Shown here: one piece after another, positions 2,178 through 47,758 of the stretch
Layout of the letters: each line of letters begins with the position of its first letter
Numbering within the stretch: position 1 is the stretch's first letter
Source: Oscillatoriales cyanobacterium
GTDB taxonomy: Bacteria > Cyanobacteriota > Cyanobacteriia > CACIAM-69d
Assembly (NCBI GenBank): GCA_004292515.1
Contig: RDXB01000035.1
Span: forward strand, 62,001 to 126,000
Reading direction: 5' to 3'
Length of the DNA: 64,000 bases
Position numbers and translations under genes: made by a program
The notes under the pieces: model-generated
Told to the model about the DNA's origin: nothing
Databases searched by the model: none
The model's input: the letters and a program-made list of their open reading frames with translations, nothing else

Positions 2178-3046
2178 TTTCTGTTGGGTTACCCGACTGG
2201 CTCAGTCCTGAATTGCTAGCCCTTGGGCTAGTGGCTGCGATTTTGGGCGCGGCCGTCGGTAGTTTTTTGAATGTAGTGGTCTATCGGCTACCGGCGGGTC
2301 TGTCGTTGGTGCATCCCCCCTCCCGTTGTCCCCATTGCTTCCACCGACTCGCTCCCTACGACAATGTGCCGGTGTTGGGCTGGCTGTGGCTGCGGGGCCG
2401 CTGTCGCTACTGCGGTGCGCCGATCGCTGCTCGTTATCCCCTCGTGGAAGCGTTGACCGGGCTGTTGTTTGGGGCGATCGCCCTGCGCATTGGTGTCACA
2501 GAACCATTACAAGTTTTTAGTCTCTGGGGCTTCAGCATGATCCTCGGTGGGTGGATCTTCATCAGCTGGTTGCTGGCCCTCGCGCTGATTGACTGGGACA
2601 CCTTCACCCTGCCGAACCAGCTCACCCAATCGGGACTACTACTGGGCTTGGGCTTCCGAACCGCCTTCGGAATCATCGAAGCGGGTCACGGTGGTGGGGC
2701 AGCGGCTGGCCTGCTGGATGCACTCTTGGCCATGGCCCTTGGGCTGTGGCTCTTTCAGGCGATCGCGCTCCTCGGTCGGCTCATCTGGGGTCGCACTGCG
2801 ATGGGGGCTGGCGACGTGAAGCTCGCGGCCATGTTGGGGGCCTGGCTGGGCTGGAAATTACTGTTGTTGGCGAGTTTTCTGGCCTGTGCCCTCGGAGCAG
2901 TGGCGGGCTTAGGGGCGATCGGCTTGGGTTGGTTGCGGCGCGATCGCGTCTTACCCTTCGGCCCATTTCTAGCGATGGGCAGTATCATCGCCGTCCTGTG
3001 GGGAACAGACATGATCACCGCTTACATCCAATTTTGGACTCGATAG
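2174..3046 (+). CDS. pilD: type IV prepilin peptidase / N-methyltransferase PilD
   Basis: This 290-residue integral membrane protein cleaves the leader of type IV prepilins and related pseudopilins and methylates the new N-terminus. The N-terminal domain has GSFLNVVVYRLP (residues 29-40). Two zinc-type Cys pairs, CPHC (52-55) and CRYC (77-80), are typical of bifunctional enzymes. The peptidase aspartates lie in ALIDWDTFTLPNQLT (about 140) and GAGDVKLAAMLG (211-222). About seven to eight hydrophobic segments follow. Translation starts at GTG 2174, overlapping the upstream stop codon. No other pilus gene is nearby, which is common for pilD in cyanobacteria. Confidence 0.96.
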   Translation: MISVGLPDWLSPELLALGLVAAILGAAVGSFLNVVVYRLPAGLSLVHPPSRCPHCFHRLAPYDNVPVLGWLWLRGRCRYCGAPIAARYPLVEALTGLLFGAIALRIGVTEPLQVFSLWGFSMILGGWIFISWLLALALIDWDTFTLPNQLTQSGLLLGLGFRTAFGIIEAGHGGGAAAGLLDALLAMALGLWLFQAIALLGRLIWGRTAMGAGDVKLAAMLGAWLGWKLLLLASFLACALGAVAGLGAIGLGWLRRDRVLPFGPFLAMGSIIAVLWGTDMITAYIQFWTR

Positions 3047-3121
3047 CCTCAGGGTCTGCGCTTGAAATTTTGAACTTGAGACACAGCGGTTACCTCGCTT
3101 CATCAGTCCAGCATAGGCACA

Positions 3122-3214
3122 GCAGCCTGTAGGGTGGGCAATGTCCACCGACTAATCACTTCATGACATCTACGATCTGATGTGCCCATTGTTTGGGGTA
3201 AAGGCTATCAGTCT
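3122..3214 (+). repeat. dispersed repeat, copy 2
   Basis: This is the partner of 280-373. It matches through AGCCTGTAGGGTGGGCAATG, CCACCGAC, TCTGATGT and GGTAAAGGCT, and runs directly into a 14-bp tandem array. Confidence 0.7.
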
Positions 3215-3323
3215 GGGATTTTGAATCTGGAATTTTGAATCTGGGATTTTGAATCTGGGATTTTGAATCTGGGATTTTGAATCTGGGATTTTGAATCTGG
3301 GATTTTGAATCTGGGATTTTGAG
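3212..3323. repeat. tandem array, 8 x 14 bp
   Basis: Eight head-to-tail copies of TCTGGGATTTTGAA occupy 3212-3323. They are perfect except for one base in unit 2 (GGAATT) and one in unit 8 (final G). The period of 14 is not a multiple of three, and the frames read through it give only repetitive peptides, so the array is non-coding. There are no spacers, so it is not a CRISPR. Slippage expansion is the simplest explanation. Confidence 0.95.
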
Positions 3324-3371
3324 TTGAACCTGAAACATTTTTGCACTTTTCCATAGTTGAGTTGCACTGCC

Positions 3372-4592
3372 TTACAACAGGCGAGCAGCAACCTTATCAG
3401 CAGGCGATCGCCGCCAATCACTCGACAGATCCAAGAGTGACCAGCTCACCTCTTGCAAACACCTGGCTAGTTGTTGCACCACTCCCACAGCCCGCGGACT
3501 CGTTTTCAAAAATGCTGCCACTTGGGCCGCGCGATCGGCTTGTTGCAAAACCAGTGATGATGCGGGGGGATCGATCCCCAGGCTGAGTTGCCAACCGTTT
3601 AAATCCACTACCACCGCTTCCCAATAGACCGATTGAAAAGCCACAAAATCAAATTGGCAATCGCGCAAGACTCGTTCGATCCGCGCATAGCGGTGCAACG
3701 ACCAATCGCGCAGAATCACCCACGAGGGATGTAAGTCCTGGGCCAACACCAACTTGAAGGCTCGCCGCCGCAATTTGGGCAAGTAGTCATCCAGCCAAAA
3801 CACCATCATGGCGTGGAACTCAGGTGTGCCAATGCAGGAGCGATCGAGCACTTGCGATCGCGATACACCAAAGCGATCAAGCACTTCTTGGGGAAAGTAG
3901 CAGATGCCCTGTCGCGCATCTTCATCGATGTCGCGCAGGTTGTTATAGAACTGGTCAACGGCTCCAAAGTGATAGGCCGCTTCCCACTGAGCAGGACTCA
4001 AAAACGGCAAGATCTGAAAAAACGATCCCGCCAAGGTTTCCAGCATCGTTTCGTAGTCGGCCAGGGTCGCAATGCGCAGATCATCCCTGTGATAGGTCAA
4101 AATCGCGTCGAGATAGCGATCCCAGGCTTGAATGCAGAGGCGATTGATTTCGTCATCTCTCTCGTGATGGGTGCGATCGGGATGATTGCCCTCGCCCAGA
4201 TGCGTCGCGCCATCAAACTTCGGGGCGTGGGGCAATCGCGCCGTCCCTAGACGATCGCCCGCCACAAACCATCGCTGCTGGATCGTGGCCAACAACCCCA
4301 AGCGATCGTCCGTAACCAGCAATGTCCCCTGCACCAGGAGTTGCTTCCAGGCTCGATGCAATGCCAAAAAACTTGGTGAATCCGTATTGCTGTAACTTTC
4401 TTTACCAAGTAGTTCACACTCAGCTAATCGATCCACTTTGCGGATCCATCCAATCCGCTCAATCCACTCCCTCTGCACTGCTGGCTCAAGCTCTAATACC
4501 CAAGCAGCATTGTCTTCATCCTTAAGAGAATCATCAGCAATCGCGCAGTATTGCGACGATTCGACCAGCCTCGCCACAGCCGATCTGTCCAT
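3372..4592 (-). CDS. squalene/phytoene synthase-like protein
   Basis: This 406-residue protein contains a strong trans-isoprenyl-diphosphate synthase signature: DQFYNNLRDIDEDARQG followed by CYFPQEVLDRFGV. This matches the second aspartate-rich motif region of squalene and phytoene synthases. The first Asp-rich motif (DDxxD type) is not obvious, so a head-to-head condensing activity cannot be assumed. The C-terminal half (HPSWVILRDWSLHRYARIERVLR) looks specific to a cyanobacterial subgroup. I chose ATG 4592; a GTG lies nine codons upstream at 4619. It could be a carotenoid- or hopanoid-related enzyme or a non-catalytic relative. Confidence 0.65.
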   Translation of the reverse strand: MDRSAVARLVESSQYCAIADDSLKDEDNAAWVLELEPAVQREWIERIGWIRKVDRLAECELLGKESYSNTDSPSFLALHRAWKQLLVQGTLLVTDDRLGLLATIQQRWFVAGDRLGTARLPHAPKFDGATHLGEGNHPDRTHHERDDEINRLCIQAWDRYLDAILTYHRDDLRIATLADYETMLETLAGSFFQILPFLSPAQWEAAYHFGAVDQFYNNLRDIDEDARQGICYFPQEVLDRFGVSRSQVLDRSCIGTPEFHAMMVFWLDDYLPKLRRRAFKLVLAQDLHPSWVILRDWSLHRYARIERVLRDCQFDFVAFQSVYWEAVVVDLNGWQLSLGIDPPASSLVLQQADRAAQVAAFLKTSPRAVGVVQQLARCLQEVSWSLLDLSSDWRRSPADKVAARLL

Positions 4593-5295
4593 GATGCACC
4601 CGTAAAATCCCTGACGCACTCTACTAGAACTTTAGCCTTTCGTTTTACCAGATGATCGATTCAGCAAAAGTTCGCACTGAGAAGGTCACCCAGCCGTTCC
4701 CGCCTTGGTTGTAGCAACAAACCTGTCCTGACCGATTGACTGGTCTCACCCCCCAATTTCAAGGGTCTGATAGCGATTGAGGGTGATTGAGTCCGTCAGC
4801 GATCGAGGCAAACGAGGTCAGTCATGGTCGCCATTTATCTGGATGGTGACCATTCACCTGGAGAGGTTGGCAGGGGCGATCACTCTATCATCGTGATTCG
4901 ATCGCAATTTTGCTTGCGGGCCGCTCCAGTCACGGTCATTGCCAAATTCACCTTGCTAAATTCACCTTGCCAAAGTTGCCAAACTTCAATACACCACCAC
5001 CCAACACAACCCGTCCCGTCGCGATCGGCAGGCAGGTGACCAGCTAGCAACCTCCCTACAGACCAGGGCAGCGATCGGATCCCGAAGGGGCTTCAGAAAA
5101 ACCTGTAAGATCCTAGAGCCATCCTTTCAGGCGCTCACCATTCCGCAAAAAAGTATCAGTGCATCCTGAGCGCTACTGCGGGTCGATCCTGGAGAAATTC
5201 TCAGCGATAAAGCTTGGGTTGTATACCGAGGCGTGGGAAACTAGGGCGACGATTGCCCGCTGCTTGAAAGGGCGAGTCCGGGAGCCATTGAACCC
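4593..5295. other. intergenic region upstream of accD
   Basis: About 700 bases separate the divergent synthase-like gene and accD. I see no coding region or RNA. Short imperfect direct repeats occur (AAATTCACCTTGC at about 4944-4970). The promoters for both genes presumably lie here but cannot be placed by eye. Confidence 0.4.
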
Positions 5296-6300
5296 ATGTC
5301 ATTGTTTGATTGGTTTGCAAACCGTCGTAAGAGCGATTCGGTTGATCATCCGGGTCAGGAGCGCGAAATTGCCGATGGCCTGTGGACGAAGTGCGAGGCT
5401 TGCGGCGTTTTAGCCTACACAAAGGATTTGCAGGCAAACCAAATGGTTTGCTTGGATTGCGGGCACCACATGCGCGTGTTCAGTGATGAGCGCATTCAGC
5501 AATTAATCGATCCCGGCACTTGGTTGCCCTTGGATCGAGATGTGCGCCCGGTTGACCCCCTAGGCTTCTTTGATCGCAAGTCCTATAGCGATCGCATCGT
5601 GGAGGCTCAAACCAAATCCGGACTTGTGGATGCGGTACAAACCGGCTTGGGGGATCTCGACAGTCTACCGATCGCCCTTGGGGTGATGGACTTCCGCTTT
5701 ATGGGCGGCAGCATGGGTTCCGTGGTGGGTGAAAAGCTAACCCGGGCGATCGAACGAGCCACAGCCGAGCGACGCGCCATGATTATCATCTGCGCCTCCG
5801 GTGGTGCGCGGATGCAGGAAGGAATGTTGAGCCTGATGCAAATGGCCAAAATCTCCGGTGCGCTCGAACACCACCGGGAAGCGGGCTGTTTGTACATCCC
5901 CGTTTTGACACACCCAACCACGGGCGGGGTCACGGCCAGTTTTGCCATGTTGGGCGACATCATCATTGCGGAACCAAAAGCCCTGATTGGGTTTGCGGGG
6001 CGGCGGGTGATTGAACAAACCCTGCGCGAAAAGCTGCCTGATAATTTCCAAACGGCTGAATATTTGCAGCAAAACGGTTTTGTTGATGCGATCGTGCCGC
6101 GTACCCAGTTGAAATCAACCCTGGCTCGACTGGTGCGCCTGCATCACGGCTCCAATCAAAGTCGGATCACCTCGGCGATCGTTGGGCACGAGGCCCGCTT
6201 TCACACCGATCGCCTAGACGATCGCTTGCCCGACGTACACACGAACTCCCACCATCTCGATCGTCCAAACGTGGATGGGGTCATTGCCACGCCCTCTTGA
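5296..6300 (+). CDS. accD: acetyl-CoA carboxylase carboxyltransferase subunit beta
   Basis: This 334-residue protein transfers the carboxyl group from biotin to acetyl-CoA, together with AccA, to make malonyl-CoA for fatty acid synthesis. The N-terminal zinc ribbon is visible as CEAC (33-36) and CLDC (52-55). The crotonase-fold core includes [42 protein letters not shown] and [10 protein letters not shown]. The last 40 or so residues after LVRLHHGS form a His- and Asp-rich tail longer than the usual end of the family, with no known domain. The gene stands alone, as is usual for acc genes in cyanobacteria. Confidence 0.97.
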
Positions 6301-42497: not shown

Positions 42498-44453
42498 CTA
42501 TGGGTACTGAAATTGTCGATCGCCCGCGATCGCCCACATTTTTCCCCCTTCCCAATCTTGGGTAATCAACGGTTTTTCGGGGTTGTTGAAATTAGTCGAT
42601 CGATAGGCGGGAAACTGGCCCCAATCAACCTTTTGACCGTTGCGCTCAACCGTTGGAAGCGCCGCGCCGCGATGGGTGACGGCTAGGCGATCGCCCCGGG
42701 AATCACGGAAAGTCACCGTTTTACCGGTCAGTTCCCAGCGCGACCGCCCCAACACGGACCGCTTGAAGGATGCAAAATCCCCGTCATTTTCCGGTTCGCC
42801 CACTTCCATCGCCCAGCCGGTGATCGCCTCGGGCGGGGTCGATCGCTCGGGTCGCGCCACCCACAGCCGATCGCTCGGGTAGCGTTTTTGCAGTTCGGCT
42901 GTTTGGCTCGCGTCGATCGCCGGTAAGGACAAGCCGATCGGGTGAATCGCCACCCAGGTGGTTTCAAAGCGCCAAAACAGCACCGGCCGGCCCGCTGAGT
43001 CGATCGCCGTTTCCGCCACCACCGACGCGGGCAAACTCCACTGGAACGGCGCGCCCCCATCGTTTAGCCACAGCAGCAGGGGCCCAAACTGCCCGATCGC
43101 CTCGTGGGTTTGCTCCTGGTGGTGGGTGGAAATTTTGCCGGGGTTCACGCCGGAGCTGGCGACCAGGTAATCGACCCCGCGCCGATCGTTTTGGGCGAGG
43201 AATTTGAAGCCGTTCACATCCGTGCCAGAGCCTTGGGCCAGGCTGCCAAATTGGAACGATCGCCCAAAATAGAGGGTTTCGTAATAGAGCGGTCGATCGC
43301 GCGCGCCGGGTCGCCAATGTTCGTAGGTCGGTTTGCCCGCCTGGATTTCCTGGGGCCGATCAAACTGTTTGCGGGCGATCGCCACGGCCGCGGCCGGCGG
43401 TCGGTAGCCACTGGTCAAGGCATGCACAACATCGGGATCAGCGTCAGGGTCGGGGGCGATCGCCTCACTAAAATAGAGACTCATCAACTTGCTGGCCAGG
43501 GAAGCTCGGGGCGCATTGCCCTTGCTGGCATCCCGTTTGGTGGGGCCGCCGAAGCCGCCGCGCCAATATTTCAGCGCTCCCGTGATGCTCAACCAATCGA
43601 GGGCACTCTTGGCCAGGGCGCGCATTTCCGGCTCCGGCCCAAAGTCGTAGAGATTCAGCCAAGCGGTGAAGGTGTGGCCCCAGTAGGTTTCCGAGTCCCA
43701 CTCGCCCTGGCCGATTTTGTAGAGGTTGTGGGCAAAACTGCGGAGCCGATCGCGGTAAATCACCGCTGTGTCCCGGTTGCCCGCCTCCATCGCAAACAAA
43801 TAGACCGCTACCTCGCGCATCGATCGCAAATTATCCGTGTTGCGGCAATCGACCCAGGTGATGCAGTTGTCGCGGGACTGGTTCCAAAAGGGCTGCGGCG
43901 TAAGAAAAAATTGCTTGAGCGGATCTTGGCGCGTCCAAACCGCCGCCGCTTGCTTCATCCGATCGCGGTAGCTCGGCTCCAGATAGCGACCAAAGTAGAA
44001 GTATTTGCGGACTTGTCCCTTGAGGGTGAAGGCGGGGTAGAGATCAATCCCGAAGGTGTGTTCGGTGCTGCTGGGAATCGGGTCGGGCTGCTGCAAAAAG
44101 CCGATCGCCCGATCGCGATTGCCCGCCAAAAAATCCAGCATCGCCTTGGGATAGGACTTTTTTTCGTTCTCGAAATAGCCGTTGCCGTAGCTCTTGGGGT
44201 TGGCAAATTGGGCGATTAGCTCGCGGCCGCGTTGCTGGTAGGTGGCTTCCCAGTCTGCGGGCCAGGGATTAGCCCCATCGGCCGGGGCGATCGCCTCTTT
44301 GGCAATCTCGTTGGGGCTTACGGGGCCGGTCGTCACTGGGGCGGCGATCGGGGTCGATCGCGGTGAGTTGAGATCGCCCGCCTGCACCGTGCAACCCAGG
44401 GCGATCGCCCCCAAGGCCAAGGCCCAAACCCCCTTGCTGAGATGGCCGCGCAC
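42498..44453 (-). CDS. large exported protein, possible polysaccharide lyase-like
   Basis: This 651-residue protein starts best at GTG 44453, with CAGGAG eight bases upstream; it then reads VRGHLSKGVWALALGAIALG followed by Cys, a signal peptide or weak lipobox. The body is rich in aromatic residues and amphipathic helices (GNRDTAVIYRDRLRSFAHNLYK, YWGHTFTAWLNLYDFGPE), like the (alpha/alpha) toroid of alginate or heparin lyases. The C-terminal third is beta-rich (RPVLFWRFETTWVAIHPIGL). No catalytic residues can be named. It is probably periplasmic; the family is uncertain. Confidence 0.55.
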   Translation of the reverse strand: MRGHLSKGVWALALGAIALGCTVQAGDLNSPRSTPIAAPVTTGPVSPNEIAKEAIAPADGANPWPADWEATYQQRGRELIAQFANPKSYGNGYFENEKKSYPKAMLDFLAGNRDRAIGFLQQPDPIPSSTEHTFGIDLYPAFTLKGQVRKYFYFGRYLEPSYRDRMKQAAAVWTRQDPLKQFFLTPQPFWNQSRDNCITWVDCRNTDNLRSMREVAVYLFAMEAGNRDTAVIYRDRLRSFAHNLYKIGQGEWDSETYWGHTFTAWLNLYDFGPEPEMRALAKSALDWLSITGALKYWRGGFGGPTKRDASKGNAPRASLASKLMSLYFSEAIAPDPDADPDVVHALTSGYRPPAAAVAIARKQFDRPQEIQAGKPTYEHWRPGARDRPLYYETLYFGRSFQFGSLAQGSGTDVNGFKFLAQNDRRGVDYLVASSGVNPGKISTHHQEQTHEAIGQFGPLLLWLNDGGAPFQWSLPASVVAETAIDSAGRPVLFWRFETTWVAIHPIGLSLPAIDASQTAELQKRYPSDRLWVARPERSTPPEAITGWAMEVGEPENDGDFASFKRSVLGRSRWELTGKTVTFRDSRGDRLAVTHRGAALPTVERNGQKVDWGQFPAYRSTNFNNPEKPLITQDWEGGKMWAIAGDRQFQYP

Positions 44454-44524
44454 TGTAATTGCTCCTGATAAGCTGAAGGGCCTGTCGTCTTTTCCGCAAG
44501 GCAAGCTACAACGATTGATCTGCC

Positions 44525-44606: not shown

Positions 44607-44646
44607 AGGACGACAAACTTAAACATCCTGATTGACTCTCAGACCC

Positions 44647-46524
44647 ATGACCGATCGCCCGTCCGTTGCCATCCTAGCGCCCACCCCTCGCGGCTTGCGG
44701 CTGGCCCGCCAAATCCAAGCGGGCATCCCCGAGGCGATCGCCTGGACGAAACCGGGGGCGATCGGCGCGGGCGATCGGCCAGCCCAAACGGAGATCTACC
44801 AAGACTTTGGGGCCTGCGTCGCCGATCGCTGGGCCGCCGGTCAGCCGATCGTCTTTATCTTGGCCGTGGGGGCCGCCGTCCGGGCGATCGCGCCCCATCT
44901 GCAAGACAAGCGCACCGATCCGCCCGTGGTGGTGGTGGACGAAACGGGTCGCCATGTGGTGAGCTTGGCCGGTGGGCACATTGGCGGGGCCGATGCGTTG
45001 GCGCGGCAGGTGGCGGGCCTGTTGGGCGTGGAGCCGATCATCACCAGTGCCTCGGAAGGCCAAGGGCTACCGGCGATCGACCTACTGGGTGAGCCTTACG
45101 GTTGGCGGCGCGGCCAGGGCGATTGGTTGGGTGTGGCCAGCGCGATCGCCCGGTTCGAGACCGTGGGCGTGGTGCAGACCTGTGGCTGGACGCTCTGGAT
45201 CGAGGAGCTGGCGGGGTTTCACCCGTTCGTGCTGCTGTCGGAGGCGGATCTAGAGGACTTGTCACCCCAGGTGCGGGCGATCGTTTGGATTAGCGATCGC
45301 CCCTTGCCGCCTTTGTCGGTTCCCGCCGTGGCTTGGCATCCGCGCACAATTTGGGTGGGCATCGGTTGTGAGCGGCACACGCCCCTGGAGCAACTGGCGG
45401 CGGCCTTGGCGATGGTGATTGAGCAGCGGGAGTTGGCCCCGGAGGCGATCGCCGGCCTCGCGTCGATCGACCTAAAAGCCGATGAAGTGGGCTTGCTGGC
45501 CCTAGCCGATCGCTTAGATCTGCCCACCCGTTGGTTTACGGCGGCGCAATTGGCCCCGATCGCCGTGCCCAACCCGTCGGAGGTGGTGCGATCGGAAGTG
45601 GGCACACCTTCCGTGGCCGAAGCGGCGGCCCGACTGGCAGCGGGTGGGGCTGAATTACTCACCGAAAAACAGGTGTTTCGCGCCCCAACCGGTGGCAACG
45701 GCGCTTGCACGATCGCCCTGGCCCGCAGCGATCGGGAATATACGCCCAAACCCGGCAAGCTGTGGCTGATCGGCACAGGCCCCGGCGCGTTGGATCAAAT
45801 TACGCCAGCCGTCCGCGCCACCCTCAGCCGATGCGACGCGGTAATCGGCTATCAGCTCTATTTGGATTTGTTAGCCCCCTTGTTGCATCCAGGGCAAATC
45901 ATTGAAGGCAGCCCGATCACCCGGGAAAAACAGCGGGCCGAACGGGCGATCGACCTGGCCGAGCGGGGACTAACGGTGGCCGTGGTCTCCTCCGGTGATT
46001 GCGGCATCTACGCCATGGCCGGGTTGGTGTTGGAATGTTTGGTGGCGCGGGGCTGGGATGGCCAAGCACCCGAGGTGGAAGTCCTGCCAGGAATCACGGC
46101 CCTGCAAGCGGCAGCGGCCCGGGTCGGTGCGCCCTTGATGCACGATTTTTGTGCGATTTCCCTGTCGGATTTGCTCACGCCCTGGCCGGTGATTGTGCAG
46201 CGGTTGCAGGCGGCGGCGATCGGCGATTTCGTCGTGGCGCTCTACAATCCCCGATCGCAAACCCGCCAAACCCAAATCGAAACGGCCTTCGAGATTCTGC
46301 GGGAACATCGATCGCCCGACACGCCCGTGGTGCTGGCCCGATCGCTGCACCGGCCCGATGAGCAAATAACGATCGCAACCCTCAACACCGTTGATCTCGG
46401 GGCGATCGATATGTTGACCGTCGTGCTGATTGGTAATGCCAGCACGTTTGCCCATGGCGATCGGGTGATTACGCCGCGTGGCTATGCCGTTCGCACCCCA
46501 CCGTCTAGCTTGTCTATGAGCTAA
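44647..46524 (+). CDS. cobJ: CbiG-CobJ fusion: cobalt-precorrin-5A hydrolase / precorrin-3B C17-methyltransferase
   Basis: This 625-residue fusion has two parts. The N-terminal half resembles CbiG (FILAVGAAVRAIAPHLQDKR, VVSLAGGHIGGADALARQVA, ASEGQGLPAIDLLG), which opens the lactone of cobalt-precorrin-5A. From about residue 370 a tetrapyrrole methylase domain of the CobJ/CbiH type follows (KLWLIGTGPGALDQITPAVR, SSGDCGIYAMAGL, DFVVALYNPRS). Together they catalyse ring contraction and later steps of corrin synthesis. ATG 44647 is chosen over an upstream TTG. Such fusions are known in cyanobacteria. No cobalamin riboswitch was recognised upstream. Confidence 0.92.
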   Translation: MTDRPSVAILAPTPRGLRLARQIQAGIPEAIAWTKPGAIGAGDRPAQTEIYQDFGACVADRWAAGQPIVFILAVGAAVRAIAPHLQDKRTDPPVVVVDETGRHVVSLAGGHIGGADALARQVAGLLGVEPIITSASEGQGLPAIDLLGEPYGWRRGQGDWLGVASAIARFETVGVVQTCGWTLWIEELAGFHPFVLLSEADLEDLSPQVRAIVWISDRPLPPLSVPAVAWHPRTIWVGIGCERHTPLEQLAAALAMVIEQRELAPEAIAGLASIDLKADEVGLLALADRLDLPTRWFTAAQLAPIAVPNPSEVVRSEVGTPSVAEAAARLAAGGAELLTEKQVFRAPTGGNGACTIALARSDREYTPKPGKLWLIGTGPGALDQITPAVRATLSRCDAVIGYQLYLDLLAPLLHPGQIIEGSPITREKQRAERAIDLAERGLTVAVVSSGDCGIYAMAGLVLECLVARGWDGQAPEVEVLPGITALQAAAARVGAPLMHDFCAISLSDLLTPWPVIVQRLQAAAIGDFVVALYNPRSQTRQTQIETAFEILREHRSPDTPVVLARSLHRPDEQITIATLNTVDLGAIDMLTVVLIGNASTFAHGDRVITPRGYAVRTPPSSLSMS

Positions 46525-46573: not shown

Positions 46574-47758
46574 ATGTCGTCTTCCGATCCTCAAACCGCC
46601 CAGGGGACTGATGCCACACCCGCAACGGGATGCAAGGGCGCTAGTTCTTTAAGTTCTTTATCTGAAAGTTCTTTATCTAAAAGCTTTGTGCCCGATCGCC
46701 CCCTTGCGGATTGGCCGTTGGTGGTGCGGGCGCTGGACTTTGCGGCCCACAAGCACCGAAACCAGCGCCGCAAAGATCGCGCCCGATCGCCCTACATCAA
46801 CCACCCGATCGATGTCCTCACGGCCCTGGTGTTGGAAGCCGGGATTACCGATAGCCCCTTATTGGCGGCGGCCCTGTTGCACGACACTCTGGAAGACACC
46901 GACACGACCGCCCAGGAATTGATCGAGGTCTTTGGGGATGAGATTGCGGCCATTGTGGCGGAAGTGACAGACGACAAGCGCTTGCCCAAGGCTGAACGCA
47001 AGCGGTTGCAAATTGCCCATGGCCCGACCTTGAGCGATCGGGCCAAGCTGGTGAAGCTAGCCGACAAGCTCTGCAATTTGCGCGATGTTCACCAATCGCC
47101 TCCAGTCCACTGGTCGATCGAACGGCGGCGCGCCTATTTTGACTGGGCCGAGAAGGTGGTCACGGCCCTGGGCGCTACCCATCCGGTGCTCACCCATGCC
47201 CTTGAGACCGTGTTGGCGATCGGACGGGCCGATCTCGATCGCGACCGGGTTCAAGGGGCCGCGCGGCGGATTTATTGGGCAGGGCCGTTGTTTTCGGTGG
47301 GCGAGCGGTGGTTTAACCAAGTCCTGAGCGATCGCTTACAGGCAGCGGGCTACCAGGTGTTTTTGCCCCAGGCAGAATGTGCCAGATTGACGGAAACGGC
47401 GGCCATTTTCGATCGCTGTCGATCGGGTTTGCAACAGGCCGATGGGGTGATTGCGGTGCTGGATGGAGCCGATGCGGACTCGGGTACTTGCTGGGAATGT
47501 GGCTACGCCTTTGCCCAAAAGCTGCCGATCGTGGCGATTCGGACGGATTTTCGAGCGTCGGGCGATTCCGGTGGCTTTAACGCCATGTTGTTGGCTTCGG
47601 CCCAGGCGGTAGTGACCTTGGCCGACCCAGCGGCGGAGTTGCCGGCCAACCTCGATCGCTTGGGTCAAGATCTACTGTTTGCCCTCAGCATGATCGGCCT
47701 CGATCCCCTGAAGGAACCGATCGCCAATGCTCCGACAGCCGCTATCTATCCAGGATAA
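46574..47758 (+). CDS. HD (MESH1/SpoT-like) hydrolase fused to a nucleoside 2-deoxyribosyltransferase-like domain
   Basis: This is a 394-residue, two-domain protein. The N-terminus (about 1-40) is disordered and carries an LSSLSESSLS repeat. Residues 48-215 form an HD domain like the (p)ppGpp hydrolases MESH1 and SpoT: INHPID (His77), HDTLED (103-108) and LADKLCNLRD (Asp164). Residues 233-375 resemble nucleoside 2-deoxyribosyltransferase: YWAGPLFS, FDRCRSGLQQADGVIAVLDG, DADSGTCWECGYA with Glu308, and GGFNAML. All residues expected for both activities are visible. Cleaving ppGpp or another nucleotide and then releasing the base is possible, but this is inference. It lies 49 bases after cobJ. 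Confidence 0.85.
   Translation: MSSSDPQTAQGTDATPATGCKGASSLSSLSESSLSKSFVPDRPLADWPLVVRALDFAAHKHRNQRRKDRARSPYINHPIDVLTALVLEAGITDSPLLAAALLHDTLEDTDTTAQELIEVFGDEIAAIVAEVTDDKRLPKAERKRLQIAHGPTLSDRAKLVKLADKLCNLRDVHQSPPVHWSIERRRAYFDWAEKVVTALGATHPVLTHALETVLAIGRADLDRDRVQGAARRIYWAGPLFSVGERWFNQVLSDRLQAAGYQVFLPQAECARLTETAAIFDRCRSGLQQADGVIAVLDGADADSGTCWECGYAFAQKLPIVAIRTDFRASGDSGGFNAMLLASAQAVVTLADPAAELPANLDRLGQDLLFALSMIGLDPLKEPIANAPTAAIYPG

Follow-up and report, generated by a model that had tools for sequence, protein, structure and literature searches.

The window, by which we mean the whole stretch of 64,000 nucleotides that was analyzed, carries at positions 46574-47758 of the forward strand a gene for a 394-amino-acid protein in which a Mesh1-type HD hydrolase is fused to an N-ribosyltransferase of the nucleoside deoxyribosyltransferase (NDT) family. 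This assignment rests on profiles, a structural model, and full-length orthologues in three other genomes (G033, G045, and G135). Judged from sequence and model together, the fusion is probably a genuine nucleotide-recycling enzyme with two heads: the HD domain lacks none of its metal and catalytic residues, and the NDT domain behind it has its catalytic Tyr, Asp, and Glu as well as the 5'-OH Asn. Organisms from bacteria to humans have Mesh1 enzymes, whose true substrate is a matter of dispute, with ppGpp, NADPH, PAPS, and CoA all having been put forward. Finding Mesh1 naturally fused to an enzyme that acts on nucleosides gives a rare hint of Mesh1 chemistry and places both activities in one purified protein in which they could be assayed; it also highlights a cyanobacterial NDT subfamily in which an active-site Asp is replaced by Cys. 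A literature search covering few subscription journals found no paper that ties MESH1 to NDT or describes an HD domain-NDT fusion, and its sole match for NDT fusions (PMC3710099) concerns other ones; an earlier note on this DNA, which knew of no described function for the architecture, was thus borne out within that search. To our knowledge, the parts are known, and the HD and NDT combination and the Cys subfamily are apparently undescribed.

The domain layout was determined by profile, sequence, and structure comparison. The open reading frame begins with ATG and ends with TAA. Pfam HD_4 matched residues 53-177 (E = 1.5e-18, above the gathering cut-off), and Nuc_deoxyrib_tr (PF05014) matched residues 233-329 (E = 1.9e-18; 67.1 bits versus a gathering score of 28.8). 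The relation of the second half to NDTs, which the earlier note had left to be checked by profile comparison, was therefore upheld. The sole NCBIfam match was a partial one to spoT_relA, far below its cut-off. When PDB sequences were searched by phmmer, the N-terminal half matched human MESH1 (3nr1, E = 3e-50), and the C-terminal half matched the NDTs 7m5h (E = 2e-10) and 7o62 (E = 3e-8). An AlphaFold2 model (mean pLDDT 84, pTM 0.65) recovered both folds. Residues 45-219 (46706-47230, forward strand), the Mesh1-type HD domain, superposed on human MESH1 5vxa over 175 aligned residues (VIA Z 28.2, rmsd 1.5), and residues 228-375 (47255-47698, forward strand), the NDT-family domain (profile E = 2.2e-22), superposed on the Desulfotalea psychrophila NDT 7o62 over 132 residues (VIA Z 17.6, rmsd 2.0), followed by E. 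faecalis 7m5h, MilB, the Chroococcidiopsis thermalis NDT (CtNDT), and DNPH1 as the next structural matches. A long interdomain helix (residues 204-227), the end of which (residues 220-227 by AlphaFold2 secondary structure; 47231-47254, forward strand) falls between the two domains, leads into the first NDT strand, and the relative orientation of the domains in the model is unreliable (pTM 0.65). Residues 1-44 (46574-46705, forward strand) form a partly low-complexity N-terminal extension with a tentative start codon; its first 40 residues have a pLDDT of about 38-56, and it is unconserved in relatives. It contains an imperfect 15-nt tandem repeat, AAGTTCTTTATCTAA, at 46643-46683 on the forward strand, which encodes SSLSSLSESSLSKS. 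Pfam, phmmer, and the predicted structure thus agree with the MESH1-like HD and NDT-like domain pair that the earlier note had read from the letters, and its reading frame, coordinates, and motifs (His77, HDTLED 103-108, Asp164, YWAGPLFS 234-241, DSGTCWECGYA 302-312, and Glu308) were all correct.

The HD half was then compared with known hydrolases, all codon positions given here being on the forward strand. By alignment, the metal ligand His77 (46802-46804) is invariant in the four known fusions and standalone Mesh1 sequences; HDTLED 103-108 (46880-46897) supplies metal ligands and the catalytic Glu107/Asp108, with Glu107 corresponding to human E65; Asp164 (47063-47065) is a further invariant metal ligand; and Trp180 to Arg184 (47111-47125) occupies the position of human MESH1 W138/R142, invariant across the aligned Mesh1 sequences. 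Altogether, every fusion has His77, His103, Asp104, Glu107, Asp108, Asp164, Lys67, Trp180, and Arg184, and free-standing Mesh1 shows almost no variation at these positions. The E65A form of human MESH1 is inactive (PMC13221220). In the tree, the HD half lies on the Mesh1-proper side with proteobacterial, human, and fly Mesh1, apart from the cyanobacterial long RSH enzymes and the divergent cyanobacterial small alarmone hydrolases (SAHs). Its patchy presence and its mixing with Proteobacteria in the tree suggest that the HD half was acquired by transfer, which has already been remarked for the Mesh1 group (PMC3153485). With the Mesh1 SAHs (human MESH1 and Drosophila Mesh1; a subgroup of Atkinson et al. 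2011, PMC3153485), it shares the fold, 52-53% identity, all catalytic residues, and the side of the tree; known Mesh1 enzymes, however, are single-domain, whereas the fusion adds a C-terminal NDT domain and so departs from the single-domain definition of SAHs. XccSAH and other Mesh1-L enzymes (PMC9765508) resemble it in the HD hydrolase fold and motif and in being orphan SAHs without a toxic synthetase, but they are single-domain and form a sister group. Reported Mesh1 substrates include (p)ppApp and (p)ppGpp (PMC7644958), NADPH, also for one bacterial SAH (PMC9765508), CoA (PMC13221220), and PAPS (PMC12934728; PDB 9chy).

For the NDT half, residues were numbered against CtNDT. In the alignment that fed the model, standalone NDTs are misplaced in their N-terminal part, and the residue claims were therefore drawn from separate alignments. 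On the forward strand, YWAGPLFS 234-241 (47273-47296) contains Tyr234, equivalent to CtNDT Tyr7; DSGTCWECG 302-310 (47477-47503) contains Asp302, equivalent to Asp82, and Glu308, equivalent to the nucleophile Glu88; and Asp331 to Asn336-x-Met338 (47564-47587) corresponds to CtNDT Asp111 (base), Asn118 (5'-OH), and Met120 (roles from PMC10913048). Tyr234, Asp302, Glu308, Asp331, and Asn336 are kept in all four fusions. In CtNDT, Asp82 and Asn118, the counterparts of Asp302 and Asn336, lie near the free 5'-OH, and the site is completed only by two subunits (PMC10913048). The position of the active-site Asp62 of CtNDT is occupied in the fusion by Cys282 (47417-47419, by alignment; PMC10913048), and Cys likewise stands there in every free-standing cyanobacterial protein of the same NDT subfamily. 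CtNDT D62N retains about 50% of its efficiency with more futile hydrolysis, and a clash of Asp62 with the ribonucleoside 2'-OH has been proposed (PMC10913048). From these two observations we infer, by analogy, that members of the Cys subfamily are less selective for the sugar and hydrolyze more. Since D62N stays active, the Asp62 position is not strictly essential, although Cys282 could signal weakened catalysis. Known NDTs (D. psychrophila 7O62, CtNDT, and L. leichmannii NDT) share with the fusion the fold (Z 17.6 to 7O62 and 15.9 to CtNDT), the nucleophile Glu, the Tyr, the 5'-OH Asn, and the base-binding Asp, and differ in having no joined hydrolase and no Cys for CtNDT Asp62. The nucleotide N-glycosidases DNPH1 and MilB belong to the same fold class (Z about 14-16) but act on 5'-monophosphates, whereas the fusion aligns better with the nucleoside-type NDTs and keeps their 5'-OH Asn.

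The earlier note had suggested a database search for the same domain pair, and this yielded three further genomes with the fusion. It is full-length in G033 and G045 (same genus, 70%) and in G135 (another genus of the same family, 54%), which ruled out an assembly chimera or frameshift and brought the fusions to four in all, from two genera of one small cyanobacterial order. Within that order, four of six genomes carry the fusion, and the other genus (G386 and G387) has NDT alone. Beyond the four, searches of 386 genomes from the phylum and 390 from the class turned up no further fusion. Among about 85,000 species scanned, at least two full-length fusion matches emerged, Limnothrix sp. CACIAM 69d and Cyanobacteria bacterium MS008, which are apparently not additional to the four; the other matches listed were mostly proteobacterial Mesh1 genes without NDT. 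In phages, plasmids, and viral contigs only the separate domains were found. As far as seen, therefore, the fusion is confined to one small cyanobacterial order. Longer Mesh1 frames in Proteobacteria (L050, L107, L069, and L056) were rejected as fusions, being stop-free upstream reading in GC-rich DNA whose extra residues, judged by eye, resemble out-of-frame sequence, and a tblastn match of L052 into the NDT region was rejected because it is interrupted by a stop. Between G033 and G045, dN/dS was 0.09 for the HD half and 0.087 for the NDT half, indicating purifying selection on both and hence that neither half is decaying. The NDT tree joins the four fusions (70/63); free HD trees put the G135 HD domain apart, and a single clade of the four was not rejected (p-AU 0.525). 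A single fusion event, the simplest reading of these sequences, is thus probable.

The fusion is kept in two genera, in gene neighborhoods that differ. In G033, G045, and G135, the fusion is preceded on the same strand, at a distance of 2-38 nt, by a HAD phosphatase gene, the assignment of which to the beta-phosphoglucomutase type falls below the specific NCBIfam cut-offs. The window's own genome lacks an orthologue of this HAD gene (best matches 26-30%), and none adjoined the free-standing NDT genes at the loci examined. In the window, the fusion is immediately preceded by a 630-aa cobalamin-synthesis protein that joins CbiG to a tetrapyrrole methylase of CobJ/CbiH type (44632-46524, forward strand), and farther upstream a 668-aa predicted protein without a Pfam match is encoded at 42498-44504 on the reverse strand. 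A hairpin with a U-run just 5' of the fusion start (-13.5 kcal/mol) was rejected as an intrinsic terminator on its z of -1.1 versus shuffles, and the terminator scan gave no entry for it. Among 386 non-fusion genomes of the class, Mesh1 occurred in at least 52, the fusion-type NDT in at least 22, and both in at least 2, where chance expects 3.0 (lower bounds, with the first five candidates per genome scored); no excess co-occurrence of the separate genes was found in these genomes. As they co-occur only at chance level, the fusion itself is the main evidence tying the two activities. A conserved Mesh1-NDT operon was likewise rejected, an NDT-family frame standing beside Mesh1 in just 1 of about 80 Mesh1 loci. 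At that one locus, in a Propionivibrio MAG (L058), an NDT-family gene lies directly upstream of Mesh1 on the forward strand (4108-4737 and 4902-5516).

On balance, we lean toward the fusion being a cytosolic bifunctional nucleotide/nucleoside turnover enzyme, the halves of which would serve one salvage or clean-up branch. The HD half would act as a Mn-dependent phosphohydrolase that takes the 3'-(pyro)phosphate or 2'-phosphate off adenine or guanine nucleotides, candidate substrates being (p)ppGpp, (p)ppApp, PAPS/PAP, CoA, or NADP(H). Working as an obligate dimer, the NDT half would make a Glu308-glycosyl intermediate from a nucleoside and then pass the sugar on, either to a different base or to water, and Cys282 in place of Asp may relax the sugar choice toward ribonucleosides and favor hydrolysis. 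Because HD products are mostly 5'-phosphorylated, direct channeling from HD to NDT is unlikely, save for 3'-monophosphates or with an intervening 5'-phosphatase; 5'-dephosphorylation, perhaps by the HAD neighbor in relatives, would have to fall between the two steps. The halves would most likely be linked through shared dimerization and co-expression rather than by direct hand-over of one substrate. It is this improbability of channeling that makes us prefer a bifunctional salvage or clean-up enzyme, with the eraser, regulatory, and 3'-nucleotide routes kept as rivals. The absence of a HAD neighbor here, the chance-level co-occurrence, the uncertain interdomain geometry, a possible weakening of catalysis by Cys282, and the loss of the nucleophile Glu in one relative (L033) count against it and keep our confidence moderate.

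The earlier note had instead suggested that the fusion may be a signal-nucleotide eraser, which takes off phosphate and then the base, or a damaged-nucleotide sanitizer; in the eraser, HD would remove the 3'-pyrophosphate or 2'-phosphate of a molecule whose base NDT would go on to cleave. The note's domain assignments and the lack of a described function stood; consecutive processing of one signal nucleotide, as it was put, was not supported. The product of MESH1-type hydrolysis of ppGpp, PAPS, or NADPH retains its 5'-phosphates, while the residues that accommodate a free 5'-OH are conserved in the NDT half, so that a 5'-phosphatase step would be needed. Such a phosphatase adjoins the fusion in three genomes only, and the separate genes do not co-occur elsewhere. 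Given these objections, and even with two nucleotide-acting enzymes physically fused, of single probable origin and jointly conserved, we consider it unlikely that one enzyme couples 3'/2'-phosphate removal to base release from the resulting nucleoside and so irreversibly destroys a signal or damaged nucleotide; if true, such coupling would be a new kind of nucleotide-signal eraser. The only route that would supply NDT with a free 5'-OH without a third enzyme is salvage of 3'(2')-nucleotides, in which HD would turn 3'- or 2'-monophosphates (e.g., 3'-NMP) into nucleosides for NDT to hydrolyze or trans-glycosylate. Mesh1 enzymes take varied 3'- and 2'-phosphates, and Cys282 would, by analogy with the CtNDT data, tolerate ribose; the literature search, however, found no report of Mesh1 acting on 3'-NMP, and no genomic links to RNA turnover were seen, which leaves this route rather improbable.

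ACT and TGS domains tune long RSH enzymes, and the NDT half could similarly be a sensor that adjusts the HD hydrolase on binding a nucleoside or base. The Asp-to-Cys change in all cyanobacterial members of the NDT subfamily speaks for such a role, as does the dimerization that an NDT domain would impose on the hydrolase. So does a standalone NDT relative in the same family (L033, G387:C705, 1423-1854, reverse strand) that has Val for the nucleophile Glu (SGSCFVMGY), given which the NDT half might be a binding or regulatory domain in part of the family. L033 may be an NDT without catalytic function, or its Val may stem from a sequencing error; its sister, G386, keeps the Glu. The five residues kept in the four fusions (Tyr234, Asp302, Glu308, Asp331, and Asn336) are nevertheless best explained by catalysis, and CtNDT D62N retains activity (PMC10913048), so we hold a sensor role to be a minority possibility. 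Far less probable still is a conflict or anti-phage effector in which the NDT half has nucleic acid as its target or depletes nucleosides. NDT domains are known in fusions to Abi N-terminal domains with a proposed conflict role (PMC3710099), and separate Mesh1 and NDT genes occur on viral contigs, but PADLOC matched 0 families on the fusion, no defense neighbors were recognized at the fusion loci, and the fusion is conserved in its lineage rather than strain-variable.

Some other NDTs also bear on the Asp62 position. Two large viral contigs (L131 and L132; 173 and 241 kb) encode at 2953-3447 on the forward strand a related NDT, of the same DADSGTCWE type, in which the active-site Asp is kept. 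In another subfamily, two picocyanobacterial NDTs (L163 and L165) have Cys at this position, and their close relatives have Asp or Asn.
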